The notes under the pieces: model-generated
What the model was told of the DNA's origin: nothing
The model's database searches: none
The model's input: only the letters and a program-made list of their open reading frames with translations
Program-made: the position numbers and the translations under genes
DNA from: Propionibacteriaceae bacterium
Lineage (GTDB): Bacteria > Actinomycetota > Actinomycetes > Propionibacteriales > Propionibacteriaceae
Direction of reading: 5' to 3'
DNA: 39,918 nucleotides
Assembly (NCBI GenBank): GCA_009780915.1
Contig: WQZD01000024.1
Coordinates: 1-39,918, forward strand
Shown: positions 3,277-39,918 of the stretch, one piece after another
How positions within the stretch are numbered: position 1 is the first letter of the stretch
Layout of the letters: every line of letters begins with the position of its first letter

Positions 3277-3903
3277 TCACATTCGCACCACGGGCGTTCG
3301 ACGGATGAACCGAGACCCCTGGTACATGTAGAGGATCGCGGCCCACCAGTAGAAGAAAGTGCCCCACAGTACCACAGCCCAGCCCAGTGTGGCGAAGAAG
3401 ACGGCGCCGGGGAACACCTGCTCCCCGACGAGGACGAAGGGGAAGGCGTACAACAGGCAGAAGGTCGCGATCTTCCCCAGGAAGTGGACGGGCAGACTGG
3501 CGTACCCTCGGGCCCGCAGCGACGGGATCAGGGTGGCGAGCATCACATCGCGAGCGATGAGCACCGCCACGAGCACCCACGGCAACACCCCGCGGATGGC
3601 CATCCCCAGGATGATCGCGAGGATGTACAGCCGGTCGGCGATCGGGTCGAGGACTTGGCCCAGCCGTGAGACCTGGTTCCAGGTCCGGGCCAGAAAACCG
3701 TCGAAGAAATCGGTCACGCCCGCCACGACGAGGATGAGGACGGCGATGATGTCCTGGTGCAGGTCCAACAGGCACCACAAGAAGACCGGGATGCCCGCCA
3801 AGCGGATGAAACTCAAGATGTTGGGGACGGTGAGGATCCGGGTCGTGTCGTACCCGGCTTCGCGTGGCGCCCCTGGATCGGGTTGGATGCCCACCTGGCT
3901 CAT
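3277..3903 (-). CDS. pgsA: CDP-alcohol phosphatidyltransferase (PgsA2-like)
   Basis: A 208-residue integral membrane enzyme of the CDP-alcohol phosphatidyltransferase family, which displaces CMP from a CDP-lipid with an alcohol acceptor. The full signature is present: D65, D68-G69, A72-R73, G82, D86 and D90, with the usual spacing, in an otherwise hydrophobic protein of about five to six helices. The sequence (TVPNILSFIRLAGIPVFLW near residues 25-43) resembles M. tuberculosis PgsA2 (Rv1822), the neighbour of gcvH there. By position after thrS-HIT one might expect phosphatidylinositol-phosphate synthase, but the motif context fits the PgsA2/cardiolipin-synthase type better. The start is set at the ATGA overlap with the HIT gene (3900-3903). 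The acceptor is not determined. Confidence 0.85.
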   Translation of the reverse strand: MSQVGIQPDPGAPREAGYDTTRILTVPNILSFIRLAGIPVFLWCLLDLHQDIIAVLILVVAGVTDFFDGFLARTWNQVSRLGQVLDPIADRLYILAIILGMAIRGVLPWVLVAVLIARDVMLATLIPSLRARGYASLPVHFLGKIATFCLLYAFPFVLVGEQVFPGAVFFATLGWAVVLWGTFFYWWAAILYMYQGSRFIRRTPVVRM

Positions 3904-4454
3904 GAGCGGCCCCACGCGGTCGCCAACATGTCACGGGTGTCGCTCAGGAGCTGAGGCATAGCCTTCGTCCTGCCCACGACCGGGAAGAAATTCGCGTCGC
4001 CGGTCCACCGGGGCACCACGTGCTGATGGAGATGCCCGGCGATCCCGGCGCCGGCCACCTGCCCCTGGTTCATGCCGATGTTGAATCCGGCAGGAGACGA
4101 GCTGGCCCTCAGCGTCCTCATGGCGTGCTGAGTCAACTCGGCCACCTCCCGTGTCTCCTCATCCGACAGGTCCGTGTAGTCGGAGACATGGCGATACGGG
4201 CACACGAGCACGTGTCCGGGATTGTACGGGAAGAGGTTGAGGATCACGAAGGCCGTCTCGCCCCGGGCGACGATCAGAGAATCCTCGTCCGACCGGGAAG
4301 GCGCGTCGCAGAAAGGGCAGGAGCACTCCTGTCCCCCCGTCGCGTTGGCGTCGATGTAGGCCATGCGATGCGGGGTCCACAGTCGCTCGAGCCCGTCGGC
4401 GACGCCGACCAGCCCGTGGGGTGCCCCCAGCTGCGTGAGGTCGTCCACGCTCAC
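3900..4454 (-). CDS. HIT-family hydrolase/phosphorylase (Ap4A phosphorylase-like)
   Basis: About 184 residues of the histidine-triad superfamily, nucleotide hydrolases or phosphorylases acting on dinucleoside polyphosphates or AMP conjugates. The HIT motif is H141-x-H143-x-H145, with H143 the expected nucleophile. A CSCPFC cluster (C44, C46, C49) is a likely zinc site, as in the actinobacterial Rv2613c-type Ap4A phosphorylases. The GTG start at 4454 overlaps the thrS stop (GTGA) and gives the N-terminus seen in relatives ([11 protein letters not shown]); a GTG at 4448 is also possible. The thrS-HIT-phosphatidyltransferase order is conserved in actinobacteria. Threonyl-tRNA synthetases can make Ap4A, which may explain the pairing (inference). 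Confidence 0.88.
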
Positions 4455-6445
4455 TTCCTCTCCGCGATCGTCGAGACGATCTCGGCGACCGCGTCGGCCA
4501 CCAGGACGCCGTTCTTCTGCGTCCCATCCCGATAACGGAAGGAGACCGCCCCCTTGGCCTGGTCCTCGGCGCCGGCGATCAGCATGAAGGGGACCTTGGA
4601 CCGGGTGGCGTTGCGGATCTTCTTCTGCATCCTGTCCTCGGAGTCGTCCAACTCCACGCGGACGCCGCTTCGGCGCAGGGTGTCCATGACCTCGCCCAGG
4701 TACTCGTTGAAGTCCGAGGACACCGGAACACCGACCACCTGCACCGGGCTCAACCACGCCGGGAATGCGCCTGCGTAGTGCTCGGTCAAGACCGCGAAGA
4801 ACCGTTCGATGGCGCCGAACAGCGCACGGTGGATCATGACCGGGCGCTGGTGGGAGCCGTCGGGGGCCGTGTACTCCAACTCGAAGAGCTCCGGCAAGTT
4901 GAAGTCCAGTTGGATGGTGGACATCTGCCAGGTGCGCCCGATGGCGTCCTTCACCTGGACGGAGATCTTGGGCCCGTAGAACGCCGCCCCGCCCGGGTCG
5001 GGGACGAGGGTCAGACCGGACTCCTCCCCCACCTGCCGCAGGGTCTCCGTGGCTTCCTCCCACGCCTGGTCGTCGCCCACGAACTTCTCAGGGTTCTTGG
5101 TGGACAGCTCCAGATAGAAGTCGGTCAGCCCGTAGTCCCGTAACAGATCCAGCACGAATGTGAGCAATGAGGTCAGTTCTGACTTCATCTGATCGCGAGT
5201 GCAGTAGATGTGGGCGTCGTCCTGGGTGAAACCCCGTGCCCTGAGCATCCCTTGGACCACGCCCGACTTCTCGTACCGGTAGACGGTGCCGAACTCGAAC
5301 AGTCGCAGGGGAAGTTCCCGATAGCTGCGCTGACGGGAGCGGAAGATGAGGTTGTGCATGGGGCAGTTCATGGGCTTGAGGTAGTAATCCTGCCCTGGCT
5401 TGCGCACGGTCCCGTCCTCGGCCAGTTCCTCGTCGAGGTGCATGGGCGGGTACATCCCGTCGGCGTACCACGACAGGTGCTGCGAGATCTCGTACAGCCG
5501 GCCCTTGGTGATGTGCGGGGTGTTGACGAAACTGTAGCCCGCCTCGATGTGGCGCTGACGGGAGTAGTTCTCCATCTCCATGCGAATGATCCCGCCCTTG
5601 GGGTGGAAGACCGACAGGCCTGGCCCGATCTCCTCGGGGAAGCTGAACAGGTCGAGTTCCGCGCCGAGTTTGCGGTGGTCGCGCTTGGCCGCCTCCTCCA
5701 TGCGGGTCTGATAGGCCTGGAGATCCTCTTTCGAGGCCCATGCCGTTCCGTACACCCTCTGGAGCGTGTCGTTCTTCTGGTTGCCCCTCCAGTACGCCGC
5801 TGAGGTCTTCGTCAGGGCGACGGCGGTCAAGTACCCGGTGTGCGGGACGTGGGGCCCACGGCACAGGTCCCGCCACGCCACCGACCCGTCCCGGCGCACG
5901 TTGTCGTAGATAGTCAATTCGGACCCGCCGACCTCGACGGAGGATCCGTCCTCGGCATGGGCGGCGCCCTTGTCGAGGATCAACTCCATCTTGTACGGCT
6001 CGTCGGCCTCCTCGATGCGGGCCTGCTCGTCGGTGACCACACGGCGGACGAACTTCTGACGCTCCTTGACGATGCGCGTCATGTCCTTCTCGATCGTCTT
6101 CAGGTCCTCCGGAGTGAGGGGGTCCACGCGGAAGTCGTAGTAGAAGCCGTCTTGGATGGGCGGACCGATGCCGAGCTTGGCCTGCGGGAAGACCTGCTGG
6201 AGCGCCTGGGCCGTCACATGCGCCGCCGAGTGGCGGATGATGGACAGACCCTCCTCGGAGTTGGCCAGGACCGGCTCGAGCAGGTCGCCCTCGCTCAGAG
6301 TGGTGGCGAGATCGACGGTCGTCCCGTTGCGGCGCATGGCGACGATGGAGCGGTCAGCCCCGAACAGGTCGAGACCAGTTGAACCCTCGTCCACCACCTG
6401 GGACTGGTGGTCGTCACCCTGGACGCGCACGATAGCGATGGGCAT
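4451..6445 (-). CDS. thrS: Threonyl-tRNA synthetase
   Basis: A full-length (664 residues) class II synthetase that charges tRNA-Thr. Domains in order: TGS (about 1-62); the editing domain with the HxxxH/CxxxH zinc-like site (H72, H76, C195, H199) that removes mischarged serine; the catalytic core (about 265-555) with the zinc-binding MNCPMH (C361) and class II motifs; and the anticodon-binding domain (about 560-664). The start at 6445 is supported by GGAAAGGA 8-15 bases upstream. The stop overlaps the HIT gene start. No T-box leader is recognisable in the 126 bases upstream. Confidence 0.97.
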
Positions 6446-6483
6446 ACGTCATCTTCCTTTCCTGCGGCGGCCGGGTCGCTCAC

Positions 6484-6504
6484 ATCAGGACTATTCTGCC
6501 TGAT
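6484..6504. promoter_or_regulatory. Inverted repeat upstream of thrS
   Basis: ATCAGG (6484-6489) and CCTGAT (6499-6504) flank nine bases, about 40 bases upstream of the thrS start. The spacer contains AATAGT-like promoter sequence on the minus strand, so the repeat could be an operator or a small RNA hairpin. Confidence 0.25.
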
Positions 6505-6571
6505 TCTTCCACAGGTTGGCGATCTCGCCACGGCTGCGCGGCCAGATCGATGAGAGGAAAAGCCTGTCAGA

Positions 6572-7174
6572 TCACTCCGTGACCTTCACGTGGATGACGC
6601 CGTAATCGTAGGCCTTGCGGCGGTAGACCACCGACGGCAGCGACGTGTCGGCGTCGACGTAGAGGAAGAAATCGTGGCCGACCAACTCCATCTCGTCCAA
6701 GGCCTGGGCCAGGGTGAGAGGCGTGGACCAGAAGAGCTTCTCCCGCACCACCATGGGGCCATCGCCTTGGATCTCAAGGCCGCCGACTTTCTTCACCGAG
6801 ATTGCGGTGTCCGGCTCCGCAGGTGTGGCCAGGGTCTCCGGCGCATACTCATCGAAACCGACCTTGCGGAGGTTGCGGTGGGTCCGCCTGCGGTCCTGGG
6901 CTTTGCGCAGGCGCGTCTTCAGGTGGTCGAAGGCCTCATCGAAGGCTTGTCCCTTGTCTTCCGCGATGGCTTCTGCCCGAACGACCGGGCCCTTGCCGAT
7001 CAACGTGATCTCGACCCGTACCGCCTCGCCGGAACCTCGCGGCTCGGCTTGGGCTTGCACTTCGGCTCGAATAACCTTGTCGACGCGGGAATCTAACTCT
7101 GCCATCTTCTTCGCGACCTGTTCGCGGAAGCTGTCCGTTACTTGTATTCTGCGGCCTGTAATGGTGACATCCAT
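6572..7174 (-). CDS. hpf: Ribosome hibernation-promoting factor, long form
   Basis: A 200-residue long-type HPF/RaiA. The N-terminal S30AE domain (about 1-100) binds the 30S decoding channel in starved or stressed cells. The C-terminal domain (about 140-200, with FFLYVDADTSLPSVVYRRK) dimerises and joins two 70S ribosomes into a 100S particle. The length is that of the Gram-positive long form, not the short enterobacterial one. AAGGAGGAATC directly before the ATG gives a very strong ribosome site. The 87-base gap to the upstream ComF gene holds a candidate promoter, so hpf is probably separately inducible. Confidence 0.95.
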   Translation of the reverse strand: MDVTITGRRIQVTDSFREQVAKKMAELDSRVDKVIRAEVQAQAEPRGSGEAVRVEITLIGKGPVVRAEAIAEDKGQAFDEAFDHLKTRLRKAQDRRRTHRNLRKVGFDEYAPETLATPAEPDTAISVKKVGGLEIQGDGPMVVREKLFWSTPLTLAQALDEMELVGHDFFLYVDADTSLPSVVYRRKAYDYGVIHVKVTE

Positions 7175-7211
7175 GATTCCTCCTTGAATGATGCGCCCGG
7201 GACTGGGTGTA

Positions 7212-7239
7212 GTTCTACGTTAGCCCGCACGGTGTAAAA
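7212..7239 (-). promoter_or_regulatory. Candidate hpf promoter
   Basis: On the minus strand TTTTAC (7239-7234) and TAGAAC (7217-7212) are 16 bases apart, about 40 bases before the hpf ATG. The boxes are imperfect; an alternative -10 is the adjacent TAACGT. Confidence 0.35.
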
Positions 7240-7261
7240 AAGGTAGTTCGGGCAGGAGATT

Positions 7262-7966
7262 TCATGGAGATCCTTCGTGTCGCCCGCGGTCGGCGGTGCT
7301 GGTATTGTGCAGGACGGTCGCCGCCACACTGCCCAGCCCGACGGGGTGGAGATGGGCCTCACGCAGGGCCCGCAGCCCCTCTGTCATGCTGGCCCCGGTG
7401 GTCACGACATCGTCGACGAGCACGATCCATCCCCGGCACCCATGGCTGCGTGCCTCCAGGGCGCCCTCCAGATTGGCGTGGCGTTGGTCGCTGGTCAAAC
7501 CCGATTGGTCTTGGACCCTCCGCACATGGACGAGCATGTCGGACACCTCCATGTCCATGCCGACCCGCCTCAGACGCCGAGCCGCCGCCCGTACGATGGC
7601 GCCGGTGACATCCAAGCCGCGCGCCTCGACCGAGGCACGCGTGGAAGGGAAGGGGACCAGACACCCTTGCGGCGGGAGGCGCAGATGGTCGGCCAGCGCG
7701 GCGACGGCGAAGGCCAGGCGAGTCCCCAGGATCTCGATGCCATCCCAGCGGTGGTGGTCTTTGGCCTGGGACACCACCCTCGGCACCGGAGGCTCGTAAT
7801 CTCCGGCGCACCACAGGGGAAGGTCGATCCCGGCACGGTCACGCGGGCCGACCCGGCCCGCCATCATCGCGCGCACGCAGGTCGGGCACACCCCGCGCCC
7901 GGGGCGCGCGCATCCGGGGCAGGTCCCCTGCAGGAGCAGGTCCACGGCTGCGTCCAAGAAATCCAT
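7262..7966 (-). CDS. ComF-family phosphoribosyltransferase
   Basis: A 234-residue ComF/amidophosphoribosyltransferase-related protein. The N-terminus has a four-Cys zinc-binding element (C16, C19, C27, C30). The PRPP-binding signature is at 181-193 (IVLVDDVVTTGAS). ComF proteins are needed for DNA uptake in naturally competent bacteria, but the gene is also widespread next to mtrAB-lpqB or hpf in actinobacteria that are not known to be competent. The actual substrate is unknown. The last 20 residues are polar and poorly conserved. The ATG at 7966 has only a weak ribosome site (GGTGTGA). It lies 53 bases downstream of lpqB. Confidence 0.85.
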   Translation of the reverse strand: MDFLDAAVDLLLQGTCPGCARPGRGVCPTCVRAMMAGRVGPRDRAGIDLPLWCAGDYEPPVPRVVSQAKDHHRWDGIEILGTRLAFAVAALADHLRLPPQGCLVPFPSTRASVEARGLDVTGAIVRAAARRLRRVGMDMEVSDMLVHVRRVQDQSGLTSDQRHANLEGALEARSHGCRGWIVLVDDVVTTGASMTEGLRALREAHLHPVGLGSVAATVLHNTSTADRGRHEGSP

Positions 7967-8019
7967 ACGTCACACCATGGTCGGCGGGCCGGTCGAATTG
8001 TCGTGGAGGCGTCAGATTG

Positions 8020-9735
8020 TTATGCGGGGTACGCGATGGAGGTGATCCGCGAGCCGAAATGGTTCCAGTACCCGTCCTGGTAGGACCACACGCTCCCATT
8101 GTCGTCCAAGACGACGATCTGGGGGCTGGTGCTGGTCGTCCGCGTGGTCATCTCGACTGGGGTCCACGCCTGGGGCAGGCCCCACTCATCCATCTCCAGA
8201 CCGTCGATGTCGGTCAGGAAGACCCCGGTTGTGCCCAACACGAGCAGGGAGGACGGCCCGAGCCATGCCACGTCCACAGGCTTGAGCAGGTTCCCCTCCC
8301 ACGTCAGCCTGATGGGTTTCCAGGCGGTGATCGCAGCCGGGACGTCGCCGTCGTACGTGATCAGTGCGACCCCCACCTCCGTGCGAGGACCATCCGGGGC
8401 GTCGACCTGACGCACCAGGGCGATCCGGTGGCCGTCGGGCGAGACCTGGAACCCTTGAATGTCGGTGGCCTCGATCTGGGAGGCGTCCACAGAGACGACG
8501 GCGTCGGGCGAAAGCATGGACACCGTGACCTGGCCCTGATCGCTGGACACGACCCACACGTTGTCATGGAGATCGAACTGCGGCCTGAGCAGACCGGGCG
8601 CCGCCAGCCTGGTCGTGGGCGGATCCTGGGTGATGGGCCCGACCAGCACTCCATCGTCGGTCACGGCCGCGATCTGGTCACCGTCGGAGTTCATCGCCAG
8701 TGAGTGGATGGTACGGGCGGTGGCGCCCCAGTCTCCGAGCACAGGCGTCACATCGTTGCCCGTCATCGTCGCGACGCTCCCGTCCTGGACCACGGCGAGG
8801 GTCTTGCCCGACCCGATGGGGATCGTGTCATAGGTGTTGGCCACTCCGATGGGCAACGACCCGTCGGCTGCGGCCCCTTGGAGGATGACGAGCCGAGTGT
8901 CGCACAGCAGGCGCACGCGGCTCACCCCGGCCATGTCTCGCATGGTCGCGGCGACCTCGACGGCGAGTCGGGTGGCATCGGCCACACCCGGGTCGCCCCC
9001 GGGGCACGACAGTGGCACGTCGGCCACCCCTTGGGCGGACAGAGACACGTCCTCGCCACCCCAGGCGACCCCGCGCTGGGGTTGGTCGTCGGCGACGGGG
9101 TCCAGCCAGGTGGACGGCCCGTCGACCACCAGACGCGCGGCCGTGGTCCGGTCCCAGGCCCCCCGCTGGACGTATCTCGGGTCGGGGATGAGAGTGGTCC
9201 CCGAGGTGGGGAAGAAATAGGTGTCGATGCGCATGAAGGTCTGGCTGAAGACGTACTGCGACAGGGCGAGCCCTGGAGGAGGACTCGAGATGCGCAACTC
9301 GCCGTTCTCGACCATCATGGCGAAGTCGTGGTTCCACATCGTCTCCTCCGAGCCGTGGAACGAGCCGTCGGCGTCCAGGTAGCCGATCAGAGGGGCCGAC
9401 ATGTTGACAAGATTCCCCGTGACCCGCGGGGTAGCGCCGCTGGCGTAGATGAGGACCTGCGAGTCGGGCTTCCAGTCCTGGGCCGCCTGGCGGGTCAGGT
9501 ACTCCCGCGCCGTGGCGTAGTCGAGGCTCGACATGGCCGTCAGGAAACCTCGGATGATCATGGACGCGGAGGCGCCCATGGGCGGCGGGTTGGGTTGGAT
9601 GGTCACCCCTCCCGTGCCTCCCATGTCCGCGGGCCGTGGCTGCGCCACGACCGGTCCGCTCGTGGGCAGTGTGGCGCACCCCGCGCCGACGAGAAGCACG
9701 ACGGCGCACACAAGGACTCTCAACCACTTGGTCAT
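8020..9735 (-). CDS. lpqB: Lipoprotein LpqB
   Basis: A 571-residue secreted lipoprotein, the conserved partner of the MtrAB system. The signal peptide is MTKWLRVLVC then AVVLLVGAGC, with the lipidated cysteine predicted at C20; the -3 position is Gly rather than the usual Leu. A GerMN-like domain follows in the first half and a beta-propeller-like region in the second. LpqB interacts with the MtrB sensor domain in mycobacteria and affects envelope and cell division. The ATG at 9735 overlaps the mtrB stop (ATGA) and follows GAGGAGCAGGT. The downstream comF gene begins 53 bases after the TAA stop. Confidence 0.93.
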   Translation of the reverse strand: MTKWLRVLVCAVVLLVGAGCATLPTSGPVVAQPRPADMGGTGGVTIQPNPPPMGASASMIIRGFLTAMSSLDYATAREYLTRQAAQDWKPDSQVLIYASGATPRVTGNLVNMSAPLIGYLDADGSFHGSEETMWNHDFAMMVENGELRISSPPPGLALSQYVFSQTFMRIDTYFFPTSGTTLIPDPRYVQRGAWDRTTAARLVVDGPSTWLDPVADDQPQRGVAWGGEDVSLSAQGVADVPLSCPGGDPGVADATRLAVEVAATMRDMAGVSRVRLLCDTRLVILQGAAADGSLPIGVANTYDTIPIGSGKTLAVVQDGSVATMTGNDVTPVLGDWGATARTIHSLAMNSDGDQIAAVTDDGVLVGPITQDPPTTRLAAPGLLRPQFDLHDNVWVVSSDQGQVTVSMLSPDAVVSVDASQIEATDIQGFQVSPDGHRIALVRQVDAPDGPRTEVGVALITYDGDVPAAITAWKPIRLTWEGNLLKPVDVAWLGPSSLLVLGTTGVFLTDIDGLEMDEWGLPQAWTPVEMTTRTTSTSPQIVVLDDNGSVWSYQDGYWNHFGSRITSIAYPA

Positions 9736-36215: not shown

Positions 36216-36992
36216 ATGGCGACTCTGCGACCGTGGGGTCGCCGCCGTGTCGACCTCGACCCTTTCCAGAGCACCTACATCGCCCATCGAGGCCTGTTCG
36301 ACAACGAGCGAGACTACCCGGAGAACACGTTGGCGGCGTTCTCGCGCGCGGTGGACGCGGGGTACGGGATCGAGTTGGACGTGCGAAGGACCAAGGACGG
36401 CAAGATCGTCATCGCCCACGACGCGGGACTCGAACGGATCTGTGGACGCCGTGTGGCGATCTCCGACATCACGTACGACGAGTTGCGACGCCACCGCGTC
36501 CTCGCGTCCAGGCAGAGGGTCCCCCTGTTGAGCGAGGTCCTCGACGTCGTCGCGGAGCGCGTCCCCCTGATCGTCGAGATCAAGCCGGACCTCGGGTACA
36601 CCCAGACCTGCGTGCGCACGGACGCGGAACTGCGCACCTACTCCGGCACCTACTGCGTCGAGTCCTTCGACCCGAGGGTCCTCTGGTGGTATCGACGCCA
36701 CCGCCCCTGGGTGATCCGCGGACAACTGTCCGAGGACTTCTCCAACGGGGACGGCACTGGCATACGCCCCTTGGACTGGGCGTTGACGAACATGCTGTTC
36801 ACTCCGGTGACCTGGCCCGATTTCATCGCGTACAACTGGGAACATGCGACCAAGTCCATCCTCCATTTCTGGCGTCGGGTCCTGCGCTGTCCCCTCGCCG
36901 CCTGGGCGATCACCTCCCAGGCCCAGCTTGACCGGGTGAAAGAGGATTTCTCCGCCTTCATCTTCGATGGTTTCATCCCCGACGAGACGTGA
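36216..36992 (+). CDS. Glycerophosphodiester phosphodiesterase family protein
   Basis: A 258-residue GDPD enzyme, hydrolysing glycerophosphodiesters to glycerol-3-phosphate and an alcohol. Conserved residues include H24-R25-G26, E37-N38-T39, E53-x-D55 and H68, plus the metal-binding IVEIKPD. No signal peptide is present, so it is cytosolic (UgpQ-like rather than secreted GlpQ). It has only a weak ribosome site; its start codon directly follows the stop of a short upstream ORF. The C-terminal part (about 180-258) is less typical of the family. Confidence 0.88.
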   Translation: MATLRPWGRRRVDLDPFQSTYIAHRGLFDNERDYPENTLAAFSRAVDAGYGIELDVRRTKDGKIVIAHDAGLERICGRRVAISDITYDELRRHRVLASRQRVPLLSEVLDVVAERVPLIVEIKPDLGYTQTCVRTDAELRTYSGTYCVESFDPRVLWWYRRHRPWVIRGQLSEDFSNGDGTGIRPLDWALTNMLFTPVTWPDFIAYNWEHATKSILHFWRRVLRCPLAAWAITSQAQLDRVKEDFSAFIFDGFIPDET

Positions 36993-37108: not shown

Positions 37109-37137
37109 TTGTCTTTTGACTTCCACCATGATAGCGT
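37109..37137 (+). promoter_or_regulatory. Promoter of the secreted DPGT-repeat gene
   Basis: TTGTCT (37109-37114) and TAGCGT (37132-37137) are 17 bases apart. The predicted start near 37144 gives a leader of about 100 bases before the ATG at 37244, longer than usual here. An alternative -35 is TTGACT (37116-37121). Confidence 0.45.
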
Positions 37138-37243
37138 CCAATGTGTCATCAAGCGTCACGTGAGCTGGGGAGCGCACACGACAAAGGGGGTCACGCAGCA
37201 TCGAGGCTTGGTGGCGAGTCATAACTATCAGAAAAGGAAAACA

Positions 37244-37750
37244 ATGACACAGACACCCAAGCGTCGCGCCCTCATCACGGCCGCAGTCGGTATCGCAGCT
37301 GCCATGATCATGGCGCCCACGCTCGCGTTCGCCGCCTCGACCACCGCCAACAACACCAACAACTCCAGCGCCAACGCGTGCACGAACAACGGCGGCACCA
37401 ACAATGGCAACGGCAAGGCCACTGGCAACAATGGTGGGACCAACAATTCCTCCAGCGCCAACAACCAGAAGGGCAAAGGCGGAAACATGGGCTGCGAGCA
37501 GAGCACCGATCCTGCCGACCCCGGCACCGTGGACCCCGGTACGGACGACCCCGGCACCGTGGACCCCGGTACAGAGGACCCGGGCACTGTCGACCCCGGA
37601 ACTGAGGACCCAGGTACGATTGACCCCGGAACAGAAGACCCCGGAACCATCGACCCCATCACGCCGACTCCGCAACCCACCAAGCCGCCGTGCAACGAGA
37701 ACAAGGGCAACAACAACTGCCAGGGTCAGAACAACAACAGCCAAAAATGA
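37244..37750 (+). CDS. Small secreted Asn-rich protein with DPGTx repeats
   Basis: A 168-residue protein of no known family. The signal peptide is residues 1-30 (positive MTQTPKRRA, hydrophobic core, AFA-A cleavage). The mature part is Asn/Gly/Ser-rich (31-88), then nine pentapeptides DPGT[VDEI] (92-136), then Pro/Thr and Asn/Lys/Gln-rich ends. Four Cys (two near residues 43 and 83, two near the C-terminus) may form disulfides. It has no LPXTG or membrane anchor, so it is probably released or wall-associated. AAAAGGAAAACA precedes the ATG. A strong hairpin follows. Confidence 0.75.
   Translation: MTQTPKRRALITAAVGIAAAMIMAPTLAFAASTTANNTNNSSANACTNNGGTNNGNGKATGNNGGTNNSSSANNQKGKGGNMGCEQSTDPADPGTVDPGTDDPGTVDPGTEDPGTVDPGTEDPGTIDPGTEDPGTIDPITPTPQPTKPPCNENKGNNNCQGQNNNSQK
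37517..37651 (+). repeat. Nine tandem 15-bp DPGTx-coding units
   Basis: Nine units encode DPGT followed by V, D, V, E, V, E, I, E, I, mostly alternating acidic and aliphatic. Third-codon positions differ between units, so the array is older or more diverged than the TPR array at the right edge. Confidence 0.8.
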
Positions 37751-37819: not shown

Positions 37820-37850
37820 TGAGGCGCCCGGGATACCCCCGGGCGCCTCA
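37820..37850 (+). terminator. Strong hairpin after the secreted protein gene
   Basis: TGAGGCGCCCGGG (37820-37832) pairs perfectly with CCCGGGCGCCTCA (37838-37850) around five bases. It lies 69 bases after the stop at 37750, without a T-run, the common actinobacterial terminator form. Confidence 0.6.
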
Positions 37851-37898: not shown

Positions 37899-38023
37899 GC
37901 CGTACCCCCCTGCCCATCGACACGCTCGATGTCCAACAAGAAACACTCCGTTGGCCCATGGCAAGCCCGTGACATACACTGAAGACATCTAGCACTCATA
38001 ATCGAACAAAGGATTCAGTTCAC

Positions 38024-39918
38024 ATGGGCAAAGATGCACGATCCTGGGATCCAGCAACGTCATTGCCATGGGTCCTTCTTCCCCTCATTCTCGGGGTTGT
38101 CGGCGTGATGATCTCGTCTCTCACCAACTGGGGCGTGATCGGAATCACGGTTGGAGGCTTATTGGGGGCGCTCGTCGGCGTGTTGATAGAGAGGCTCACC
38201 CCACTCAAGGATTGGCTATCTGCAAGGGCCATGCGCAAAAGGGCGGCGAAGGAGGCTGGGTACGGCGGAACTGCCTGGGACCGTACCCTTGAGCAGTTGG
38301 GCGTCCACCCCTCCAGGCCAGATCTAGACAACACCGAGTTTGCACCACGTGACATGTATCCCAGGGTGTGCGCTGCGCTCACGAGCTCGGGGCCCGTGCT
38401 TGTCGAGGGCCCGCCTTTTGCTGGGAAAAGCCGCCTCATCATCGAAGCAATACGCGAAGTCTTGCCAGATGCGCAACTGTGGTACACAGAGCACGAGGAC
38501 GCCATCACGACCCTCCAGGACTCCAGGCAGTACCCTGACAAAGGCTCCGTGATTTTCCTTGACAATGTTGACCGGTTCATAGCGAATCACTCACTGACTG
38601 CCAACAGACTCGACTCGTGGTTGGATTCCGACTGCCGAGTGATCGCGACCATCACACCGTCCAAGTACGCCGAGTGGCCGGACGCCATGGCACACCATGT
38701 ACCAGGATCGGAGGTCATGAACCGCTTCACCACCCCAATTCACCTTGACACCCTACCCACCGAGACGGAGATCGAGGCGATGCGTCATACCGGGTACGCT
38801 GACATGATCGATGACTCGCGACGCTTGGGATTTCCATCCATTATGGGAGGCGCGCACCTAGCTAAGAATAAGTTTGCGACCGGTCGCGAAATCAGATCAT
38901 GGGGATGGGCCTTGGTACGGGCTGCCGCAGACCTGCGTCGTGTCGGACTGGGTCCGGCCAGCAAAGAGCAGATAGAGAAATTGGCGCTGTCGTATGCCTG
39001 TATCCCCCTGACGGATCCTGCCTGGCCTGACGCATGGTCGTGGGCGACCGACCCCATCAGCGAGACCCTGGCTCTCATCCAGCGAGTGGCGAAAGACCGG
39101 TGGGAGGTCCTCGATCTGATAGCAGACGCGGCTGATTGGTCTCTGCTGCGCGAAACGCTCGAAGCGATGGATACCCTAGGCCTCAATGCCGCTCAATGCC
39201 TTGCCCTGGGGGCGCAAGCGTACCGAGAAGCCAACTACAACGGCGATGACTGGATCCGCTCCCTCATAGACCGGGCAGTTGACTCGGATGCCCGTGATGT
39301 ATACGTTTCAGCGACCCTCATCAGCAAACTCCTGGACAACGAGCCAAAGCCTGGAAATGCTCCTGGAATGGTCGACGAAGCCCTGGGTATCACGCCAGTC
39401 AAGCTCTCTTTGCGTGCTGAGTTCACTCAGTATAGGAACGTGCTTGGCACCACGTTAGATGAGGTTCATTTGCATGCTAGCCATCGAGAATGGCACGGCA
39501 ACTCCATCGAGAATGACCTGACTGAGGCTCTCATCGATCGCAGCCTCAAGATGAACCCACAGGATGCGAACAACCTCGGCGGCTACGCCCTGTTCCTCCA
39601 TCAACAGGGCCGGGACCCCGACGAGGTCGACACCGCCTACCACCACGCCATCGACGCCGACCCGCACCACGCCGACAACCTCGGCAACTACGCCCTGTTC
39701 CTCCATCAACAGGGCCGGGACCCCGACGAGATCGACACCGCCTACCACCACGCCATCGACGCCGACCCGCACCACGCCGACAACCTCGGCAACTACGCCG
39801 TGTTCCTCCATCAACAGGGCCGGGACCCCGACGAGATCGACACCGCCTACCACCACGCCATCGACGCCGACCCGCACCACGCCCGCAACCTCGGCAACTA
39901 CGCCCTGTTCCTCCATCA
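38024..39918 (+). CDS. Membrane-anchored P-loop NTPase with C-terminal TPR-like repeats (runs off the window)
   Basis: The frame is open from ATG 38024 to the window end, at least 631 residues, 3' incomplete. Two transmembrane helices (about 14-33 and 37-56) are followed by a cytoplasmic P-loop NTPase: Walker A GPPFAGKS (129-136), Walker B SVIFLDNVDRF (D180, D183) and an IATITPSKYAEW sensor-like strand. A helical middle (about 240-510) leads to 35-residue TPR-like repeats from Y521. AAAGGA precedes the ATG. The plan resembles STAND-type NTPases of actinobacteria, in which TPRs sense and the NTPase switches; that function is inference. Codon use in the NTPase part includes ATA, CTA and TTA, unlike the neighbours, suggesting acquisition. 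No effector domain other than the membrane helices is seen. Confidence 0.8.
   Translation, partial: MGKDARSWDPATSLPWVLLPLILGVVGVMISSLTNWGVIGITVGGLLGALVGVLIERLTPLKDWLSARAMRKRAAKEAGYGGTAWDRTLEQLGVHPSRPDLDNTEFAPRDMYPRVCAALTSSGPVLVEGPPFAGKSRLIIEAIREVLPDAQLWYTEHEDAITTLQDSRQYPDKGSVIFLDNVDRFIANHSLTANRLDSWLDSDCRVIATITPSKYAEWPDAMAHHVPGSEVMNRFTTPIHLDTLPTETEIEAMRHTGYADMIDDSRRLGFPSIMGGAHLAKNKFATGREIRSWGWALVRAAADLRRVGLGPASKEQIEKLALSYACIPLTDPAWPDAWSWATDPISETLALIQRVAKDRWEVLDLIADAADWSLLRETLEAMDTLGLNAAQCLALGAQAYREANYNGDDWIRSLIDRAVDSDARDVYVSATLISKLLDNEPKPGNAPGMVDEALGITPVKLSLRAEFTQYRNVLGTTLDEVHLHASHREWHGNSIENDLTEALIDRSLKMNPQDANNLGGYALFLHQQGRDPDEVDTAYHHAIDADPHHADNLGNYALFLHQQGRDPDEIDTAYHHAIDADPHHADNLGNYAVFLHQQGRDPDEIDTAYHHAIDADPHHARNLGNYALFLH
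39584..39918 (+). repeat. Tandem 105-bp TPR-coding repeats
   Basis: Three complete units (39584-39688, 39689-39793, 39794-39898) and the start of a fourth. Units 1 and 2 differ at one base, units 2 and 3 at three. Each codes for YALFLHQQGRDPDEI then DTAYHHAIDADPHHADNLGN, a 35-residue variant of the TPR. GC of unit 2 is 71 of 105, against 30 of 60 in the NTPase sample 38821-38880. Such an array can gain or lose units by slippage or recombination. Confidence 0.92.

Follow-up and report, generated by a model that had tools for sequence, protein, structure and literature searches.

Introduction

What is the role of a bacterial gene that joins two membrane helices, a P-loop nucleoside triphosphatase (NTPase) and a row of near-identical tetratricopeptide repeats (TPR)? 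The question is raised by the last gene of contig WQZD01000024.1 from a Propionibacteriaceae bacterium. The window, that is the whole stretch of DNA analysed, is this complete contig (39,918 nt) of a 2.78-Mb genome, and the gene (38024..39918, forward strand) is an open frame that continues to the contig end, its 3' end missing. Our best reading, held at about even confidence, is that it encodes a single-gene, membrane-anchored NLR-like (STAND) conflict or defence protein. This reading draws on how the protein is built and on its predicted STAND-type fold, on front parts that are exchanged among relatives, on a distribution that is patchy and marked by transfer, and on a fast-diverging sensor end. 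Judged from the sequence, defence is the likeliest, though putative, role of the gene.

Domain architecture and predicted fold

The frame starts at ATG 38024, with AAAGGA at 38008-38013, ten bases 5' of it, and is stop-free over 631 residues to the window end. The gene is cut within its repeat array, where the contig ends. Searches of the same genome found no second piece, whether the query was the gene DNA, the protein or the C-terminus of a close relative on an IMG/VR contig (L003). Since the window is a complete contig and the genome holds no second piece, the gene cannot be extended in its own assembly.

The protein begins with a two-helix membrane hairpin (residues 14-77, 38063..38254, forward strand, as are all parts of the gene). 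AlphaFold2 (AF2) places the helices at 14-33 and 37-77; on the Kyte-Doolittle scale (19-residue span) the hydrophobic cores, residues 16-34 and 37-55, reach 2.16 and 2.33. The hairpin is glycine-rich, with three GxxxG motifs in the window protein, whose five nearest relatives have between one and three. The Pfam glycine-zipper 2TM model matches with E 0.023 and 15.0 bits, below its cut-off of 24.2. A basic stretch directly follows, and by the positive-inside rule the NTPase and both termini would therefore be expected in the cytoplasm.

Next comes the NTPase core with a helical module and a winged-helix-like beta hairpin (residues ~100-365, 38321..39118, from predicted models). Sequence and alignment place Walker A, GPPFAGKS, at residues 129-136 (38408..38431) and the Walker B region, SVIFLDNVD, at 175-183 (38546..38572). 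We aligned the window protein with 21 of the 25 loci that a profile search of the genome collection had returned. Left out were L032, whose frame breaks off early, L051, a weak match, and the pair L047 and L048, which resemble L046 in length and in the place of Walker A. R109, G129, G134, K135, R137, L179 and D303 are invariant in all 22 rows and D180 is nearly so; because the key residues are invariant, the Walker motifs are not a chance occurrence. In the AF2 model the beta hairpin (352-362) takes a winged-helix-like place after the helices that follow Walker B. A GxP motif after the NTPase core is a feature of the STAND superfamily; the window protein has GFP at residues 269-271, where the glycine is nearly invariant in the aligned rows and the proline is not.

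A helical linker, partly of low confidence in AF2 (366-505, 39119..39538), leads to the TPR array of near-identical 35-residue units (506-631, 39539..39916), which is seen by Tandem Repeats Finder (TRF, from 39570), by Pfam (TPR_17, E 6.8e-12) and in the models. The predicted local distance difference test (pLDDT) is 78.6 for the whole protein; residues 84-425 reach a pLDDT of 86.9 and a predicted template modelling score of 0.82. An earlier note on this DNA had described the two hydrophobic helices, the Walker motifs, a helical linker and TPR-like units, and a gene cut at the right edge; sequence, AF2 and TRF bear out the former, and the contig end at 39,918, inside the array, the latter.

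When the AF2 model is compared with known structures using Foldseek, the NTPase is nearest to the STAND proteins EfAvs5, SAMD9 and 6mfv, with MalT also among the matches. The VIA alignment rows for the NTPase and winged-helix model include 9jap and 6mfv, with high root-mean-square deviation (rmsd); rows for the full model cover the helical and TPR parts only. Of the features that define STAND proteins, Walker A with an hhhhD Walker B and C-terminal superstructure-forming repeats are present in the window protein, while the helical and winged-helix modules after the core are seen on the predicted model only, at high rmsd.

Distribution and exchange of the front part

With the N-terminal 493 residues as query, relatives are found in 9 of 96 genomes, its own included: none of the 18 other members of the genus, one of 38 other members of the family and seven of 39 from the order. 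Across the class, a six-member profile detects relatives in 34 of 296 genomes, again counting its own. A first scan of genome contigs with a single protein gave no relative; it was the profile scan that found them.

The NTPase-TPR core is constant across the relatives and the front is variable. In most it is two-helix, in some Streptomyces it is trypsin-like (Pfam Trypsin_2 in 4 of 22), and a third type, mostly from Streptomyces, was taken as helical by eye. On a tree of 41 rows the window falls into one group (100/100) with Tessaracoccus, Propionibacterium and three Actinomyces, and the front labels need six changes for two-helix, two for trypsin and one for the other front; for L066 the trypsin label, and in all six cases the other-front label, was assigned by eye. 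For STAND conflict proteins, front parts are described as being swapped around the NTPase core (PMC8195603; see also PMC7159879).

Some members differ in build. Six loci of one family (L054-L059, f23) encode about 460 residues (one 548) with a hydrophobic front and the NTPase, and have no long TPR array. Another (L026, 8787-12167, from family f4) carries a long Arg/Gly/Thr-rich insertion between Walker A and Walker B. Directly before a protease-fronted member in Streptomyces (L038) lie two or three genes at 3796-9226, of 462, 866 and perhaps 541 residues, which may form an operon with it.

GC content, transfer and divergence

The G+C of the gene is below that of its flanks in seven of eight loci. 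The values (in %) for gene and flanks are 59.9 and 65.9 in the window, 53.8 and 62.6 in Propionibacterium, 62.8 and 67.4 in Tessaracoccus, 57.1 and 74.1 in Actinomyces dentalis, and 58.4 and 71.6 in Nocardioides; the two genes of Actinomyces oris, at 47.7 and 48.0, lie in flanks of 69.8.

Further, Propionibacterium sp. oral taxon 192 and A. dentalis, which belong to different families, are 79% identical in DNA over the gene and the 59 bp before it. They share one 60-bp match besides; the A. dentalis contig ends before the right flank. In the genus of the window, the upstream GDPD gene is too diverged for a comparison with an empty site (best long match 43%, one partial 64%).

Between the two A. 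oris genomes the proteins of this gene are only 61% identical, compared with 97.1-99.5% for five neighbour proteins. By part, the identity is 65% in the hairpin, 71% in the NTPase and 47% in the C-terminal part. As far as such sequences can tell, diversifying pressure on a sensor would fit this divergence, and so would replacement by transfer on repeated occasions.

Near-identical repeats

TRF finds a period of 105 bases in the window, with 3.3 copies and 97% match, and the three whole 105-bp units are 94-97% identical in DNA. In L003, which is closely related to the 3' end (86% in protein, 90% in DNA), a single complete unit belongs to this type, with 93-96% identity to those of the window; two others are at 78-83%, and a diverged pair precedes the stop. 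Among 45 family genes scanned, ten have arrays with a period of at least 90 bases. A match over 95% occurs in the window only, and over 85% in one more, L065 from genome G329, with 6.9 copies of 96 bases at 89% match.

The arrays of the nearest relatives are not measurable, because their contigs end or have a gap there. The window, L003 and L027 all run out of contig part-way through the TPR region and L029 where this region begins; in L028 it is interrupted by a gap of 1,133 bases. In L028 the frame after 12653 differs across the assembly gap and meets a stop within the repeats; beyond these, another frame yields a C-terminal end resembling the one in L003.

Near-identical sensor repeats are also known from fungi, where NLRs with highly conserved repeats are reported to undergo concerted evolution (PMC4986451), and the assembly of such arrays from short reads is described as failing (PMC12222747).

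A possible mechanism

How could such a protein act? The TPR array would bind a ligand, perhaps a protein from a phage or another foreign source, or a host protein that it has altered. At rest, the NTPase may be kept closed by the array together with the winged-helix module; upon binding, the NTPase would open and oligomerise, as STAND proteins do. The oligomer could then cluster the glycine-rich hairpins so that the membrane is perturbed or permeabilised, a step proposed by analogy, and this in turn might halt the infected cell.

A more specific form of this proposal is a one-gene bacterial counterpart of the fungal HET receptors, in which the TPR array would lengthen, shorten and be reshuffled by recombination, so that specificity could change fast, and a ring of NTPases would gather the glycine-zipper hairpins into a membrane lesion. 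Sensing, switching and killing would then be united in a single protein, with neither partner nor second messenger. We regard this form as rather doubtful.

Evidence against and alternative explanations

A number of results weigh against a STAND protein of defence. The first concern the fold. AF2 confidence is low over the membrane part (block means of 54-67 pLDDT for residues 11-60). Alignment of the whole domain favours STAND but with high rmsd, and when the core is compared alone AAA+ proteins tie with STAND. Further, 6 of the 24 rows labelled two-helix do not have two segments over the 1.6 cut, while 18 do; there is one segment in L028, L056 and L059 and none in L030, L031 and L067, which were labelled by alignment or by eye.

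The second concern family models. The window protein scores 12.0 bits with nSTAND3 (PF20720), where the cut-off is 27.2. Among its relatives, 5 of 22 match at E <= 0.01 (best 3.4e-6). However, at E <= 0.001 this model matches in all 96 relative genomes (over the cut-off in 41) and likewise in all 14 control genomes (over the cut-off in 7). A weak nSTAND3 annotation is therefore poor evidence of kinship, and nSTAND3 membership was rejected, the score being below the cut-off and the model unspecific at low score. In profile-profile comparison the family reaches a probability of 58.6 with two strong nSTAND3 proteins, and a poor control pair 2.3. PDB sequence searches with A1 and A3 return mostly generic P-loop/AAA matches, with Avs5 (9nah, E 0.016) among them. 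No model of PADLOC-DB 2.0.0 reaches E 0.01 for the window protein; its two best matches, of E 0.033 and 0.05, span 31 and 57 residues. In the relatives, models at E <= 0.01 are Avs1b and LmuA (4 of 22 each), PDC-S01 models (3 and 2 of 22) and RT-Protease_XI models (2 of 22 each); where ranges are shown, these lie mainly in the protease front or the P-loop region.

The last concern the genes around it and its history. Upstream in the window are branched-chain amino acid ATP-binding cassette (ABC) genes, a CBS-ACT gene, a GDPD gene and a repeat protein. The seven positive genomes of the order are seven of the eight genomes of a single family (f4), and the two of these whose surroundings were read (L020 and L022) have the same neighbour genes at the relative, which there looks vertically kept. 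In Arthrobacter (L033) the gene and its flanks do not differ in G+C (57.5 and 57.4). Finally, the divergence in A. oris could stem from replacement by transfer instead of selection.

Several of these observations would suit a membrane-tethered STAND regulator or scaffold, in which the helices serve as a mere anchor while a signalling or envelope complex assembles on the TPRs, with regulation of the MalT type. The retention in f4 with neighbours common to L020 and L022, the presence of MalT among the fold matches and the housekeeping neighbours in the window all point that way; the absence from the 18 other genomes of the genus, the low G+C with transfer across families, the exchange of the front for a protease and the divergent sensor end argue against it. 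We consider such a regulator possible, though distinctly less probable than a conflict or defence protein.

A switch for kin or strain recognition, like the fungal HET NLRs, would use the reshuffling of near-identical repeats to set specificity against other strains and not against phage. Cell fusion is not known in these bacteria, and among the 45 genes scanned arrays over 95% are confined to the window, and over 85% to L065 besides, three of the nearest relatives being cut or gapped there. The repeat identity of 94-97%, the divergence of the A. oris pair and the concerted evolution reported for highly conserved repeats of fungal NLRs (PMC4986451, PMC12222747) would agree with such a switch. 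On balance it is unlikely.

That the protein is an ordinary ExeA/GspA-type AAA ATPase with TPRs, serving secretion, division or transport, is very improbable, given that whole-domain alignment favours STAND, that presence is patchy, and that at E <= 1, a limit at which the HMMER filters drop most matches with E over 0.1 and so restrict such negatives, Pfam gives only TPR-type, glycine-zipper and nSTAND3 models, while the NCBIfam matches are all weak and confined to the TPR part. In the same Pfam scan there is no NACHT match.

The earlier note had proposed a STAND-like NTPase with a TPR sensor acting in conflict or defence. The first holds on the predicted fold and the family architecture, but not on family models alone. 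For the second the support is indirect (front exchange, patchiness, low G+C, transfer across families and fast divergence), against which stand the housekeeping neighbours in the window; one relative adjoins a KAP NTPase gene. The note had also suggested that the two helices breach the membrane, which would be in keeping with two-helix effectors already known. Two findings that the same note named as contrary to defence were looked for: no ExeA/GspA-type or other housekeeping AAA family appears in Pfam or NCBIfam at E <= 1 under the same filters, and on the upstream side the CBS-ACT, GDPD and repeat protein genes stand between the gene and the ABC set.

Comparison with known systems

Among the fold matches, PDB 6mfv, which we take to be the archaeal STAND protein PH0952 with a TPR sensor, is 14% identical to the window protein. 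Avs5 (AVAST type 5) is described as Sir2 - nSTAND3 - TPR/Sel1 (PMC12931631). It shares a STAND NTPase followed by a TPR/Sel1 sensor and is the first fold match of the NTPase and winged-helix model, but its front is a Sir2 effector and not a two-helix hairpin; nSTAND3 is below the cut-off in the window protein, which has no PADLOC Avs5 match, while one relative (L035) has a weak one (E 0.019).

The SAMD9 family, according to PMC5445408, also has a STAND-like NTPase followed by TPRs and bacterial members in actinomycetes, and it is a fold match. Its Walker A, however, reads GGT/S for GKT/S, where the window has GKS, and neither AlbA nor Sir2 matches in the Pfam scan of the window protein; the OB part cannot be compared as the 3' end of the gene is missing.

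Fungal HET-D/E and TPR NLRs resemble the window protein in the STAND core, the near-identical sensor repeats, the exchangeable front and the failure of short-read assembly, as described in PMC4986451 and PMC12222747. The differences are that the window protein is bacterial, has a membrane hairpin as its front, and has TPRs where HET-D/E have WD40 repeats. Also, concerted evolution is reported for the fungal repeats (PMC4986451), while for the window family there is repeat identity alone.

Cap1 of type III CRISPR has a pair of transmembrane helices whose oligomer is reported to form a gated pore in immunity (PMC12642688). The likeness is by analogy only, and Cap1 is driven by cA4 via CARF-like domains and not by a STAND NTPase (PMC12642688). 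The CARD-NLR-like LypB also combines an NTPase with TPRs, but has partner genes (PMC13236601), where none is visible for the window gene, whose downstream side lies off the contig. STAND-type proteins do not have to be defensive, since LypABC is described as controlling gene transfer agent release (PMC13236601).

Genomic neighbourhood and mobility

About 270 bases separate the gene from its upstream neighbour, and inside this gap a perfect 12-bp inverted repeat with a 5-base loop can be read in the sequence (37821..37849, arms 37821-37832 and 37838-37849), which suggests that the gene is a separate transcription unit. The neighbour (37109-37750) has no Pfam match; its product looks secreted and is marked by a 15/30-base repeat rich in Gly, Asp and Pro (GTVDPGTEDP-like).

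In 15 loci the neighbourhoods were inspected by eye, using genes called roughly from G+C, and a few selected proteins were scanned against Pfam. In this reading, which included no systematic test for defence islands, the only conflict-type genes recognised are a KAP gene and the toxin pair of L003. The KAP NTPase gene (PF07693, E 9e-57) adjoins the relative in Arthrobacter sp. 9V (L033, 6911-9076); with resolvase- and ParA-like genes further off, seen by eye, this locus is possibly a defence or mobile island. The names that follow are likewise by eye: in the two A. oris loci the gene lies between CNNM-type genes and oxoglutarate dehydrogenase, in A. dentalis it adjoins a CNNM-type gene, and in Nocardioides a serine recombinase gene is close by. 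A GDPD-type gene occurs within a few kb in the window (36216-36992) and, by eye, in both A. oris loci (L030, 3972-4727; L031, 3697-4452), which may be chance.

The IMG/VR match L003 raised the idea of the gene as phage cargo. This was rejected, as the gene end precedes an intact tRNA-Met and an integrase and is read as host flank. Searching 50,697 phage records by tblastn gave no match, and a plasmid collection gave weak matches in two records. Between the TPR gene end and the tRNA-Met, L003 carries a RelB-like antitoxin and a PemK/MazF-like toxin gene (1116-1677). On contig C10 of the window's genome, 75 bp (1301-1375, L018) are 89% identical to this antitoxin-toxin junction. The 50-bp 3' end of tRNA-Met is common to L003 and contig C4 of the same genome, where a region that appears phage-like by eye (120602-142737; L072, L073) lies beside this copy and pyrimidine genes, which suggests the end of a prophage at the tRNA seen in L003.

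Implications

We found no description of a 2TM-STAND-TPR family in the literature searched, although an earlier one may exist. This is a two-helix, single-gene STAND-TPR family whose window member has no PADLOC model, and the kind of protein is already known. One warning is that short-read assemblies lose precisely the repeat sensor part. If the reading as a conflict or defence protein is true, the family would be a partner-free NLR at the membrane, present in 34 of the 296 genomes sampled from the class (its own counted) and with few obvious defence neighbours in the loci inspected, and the repeat-reshuffling sensor logic of fungal NLRs would be extended to bacteria.
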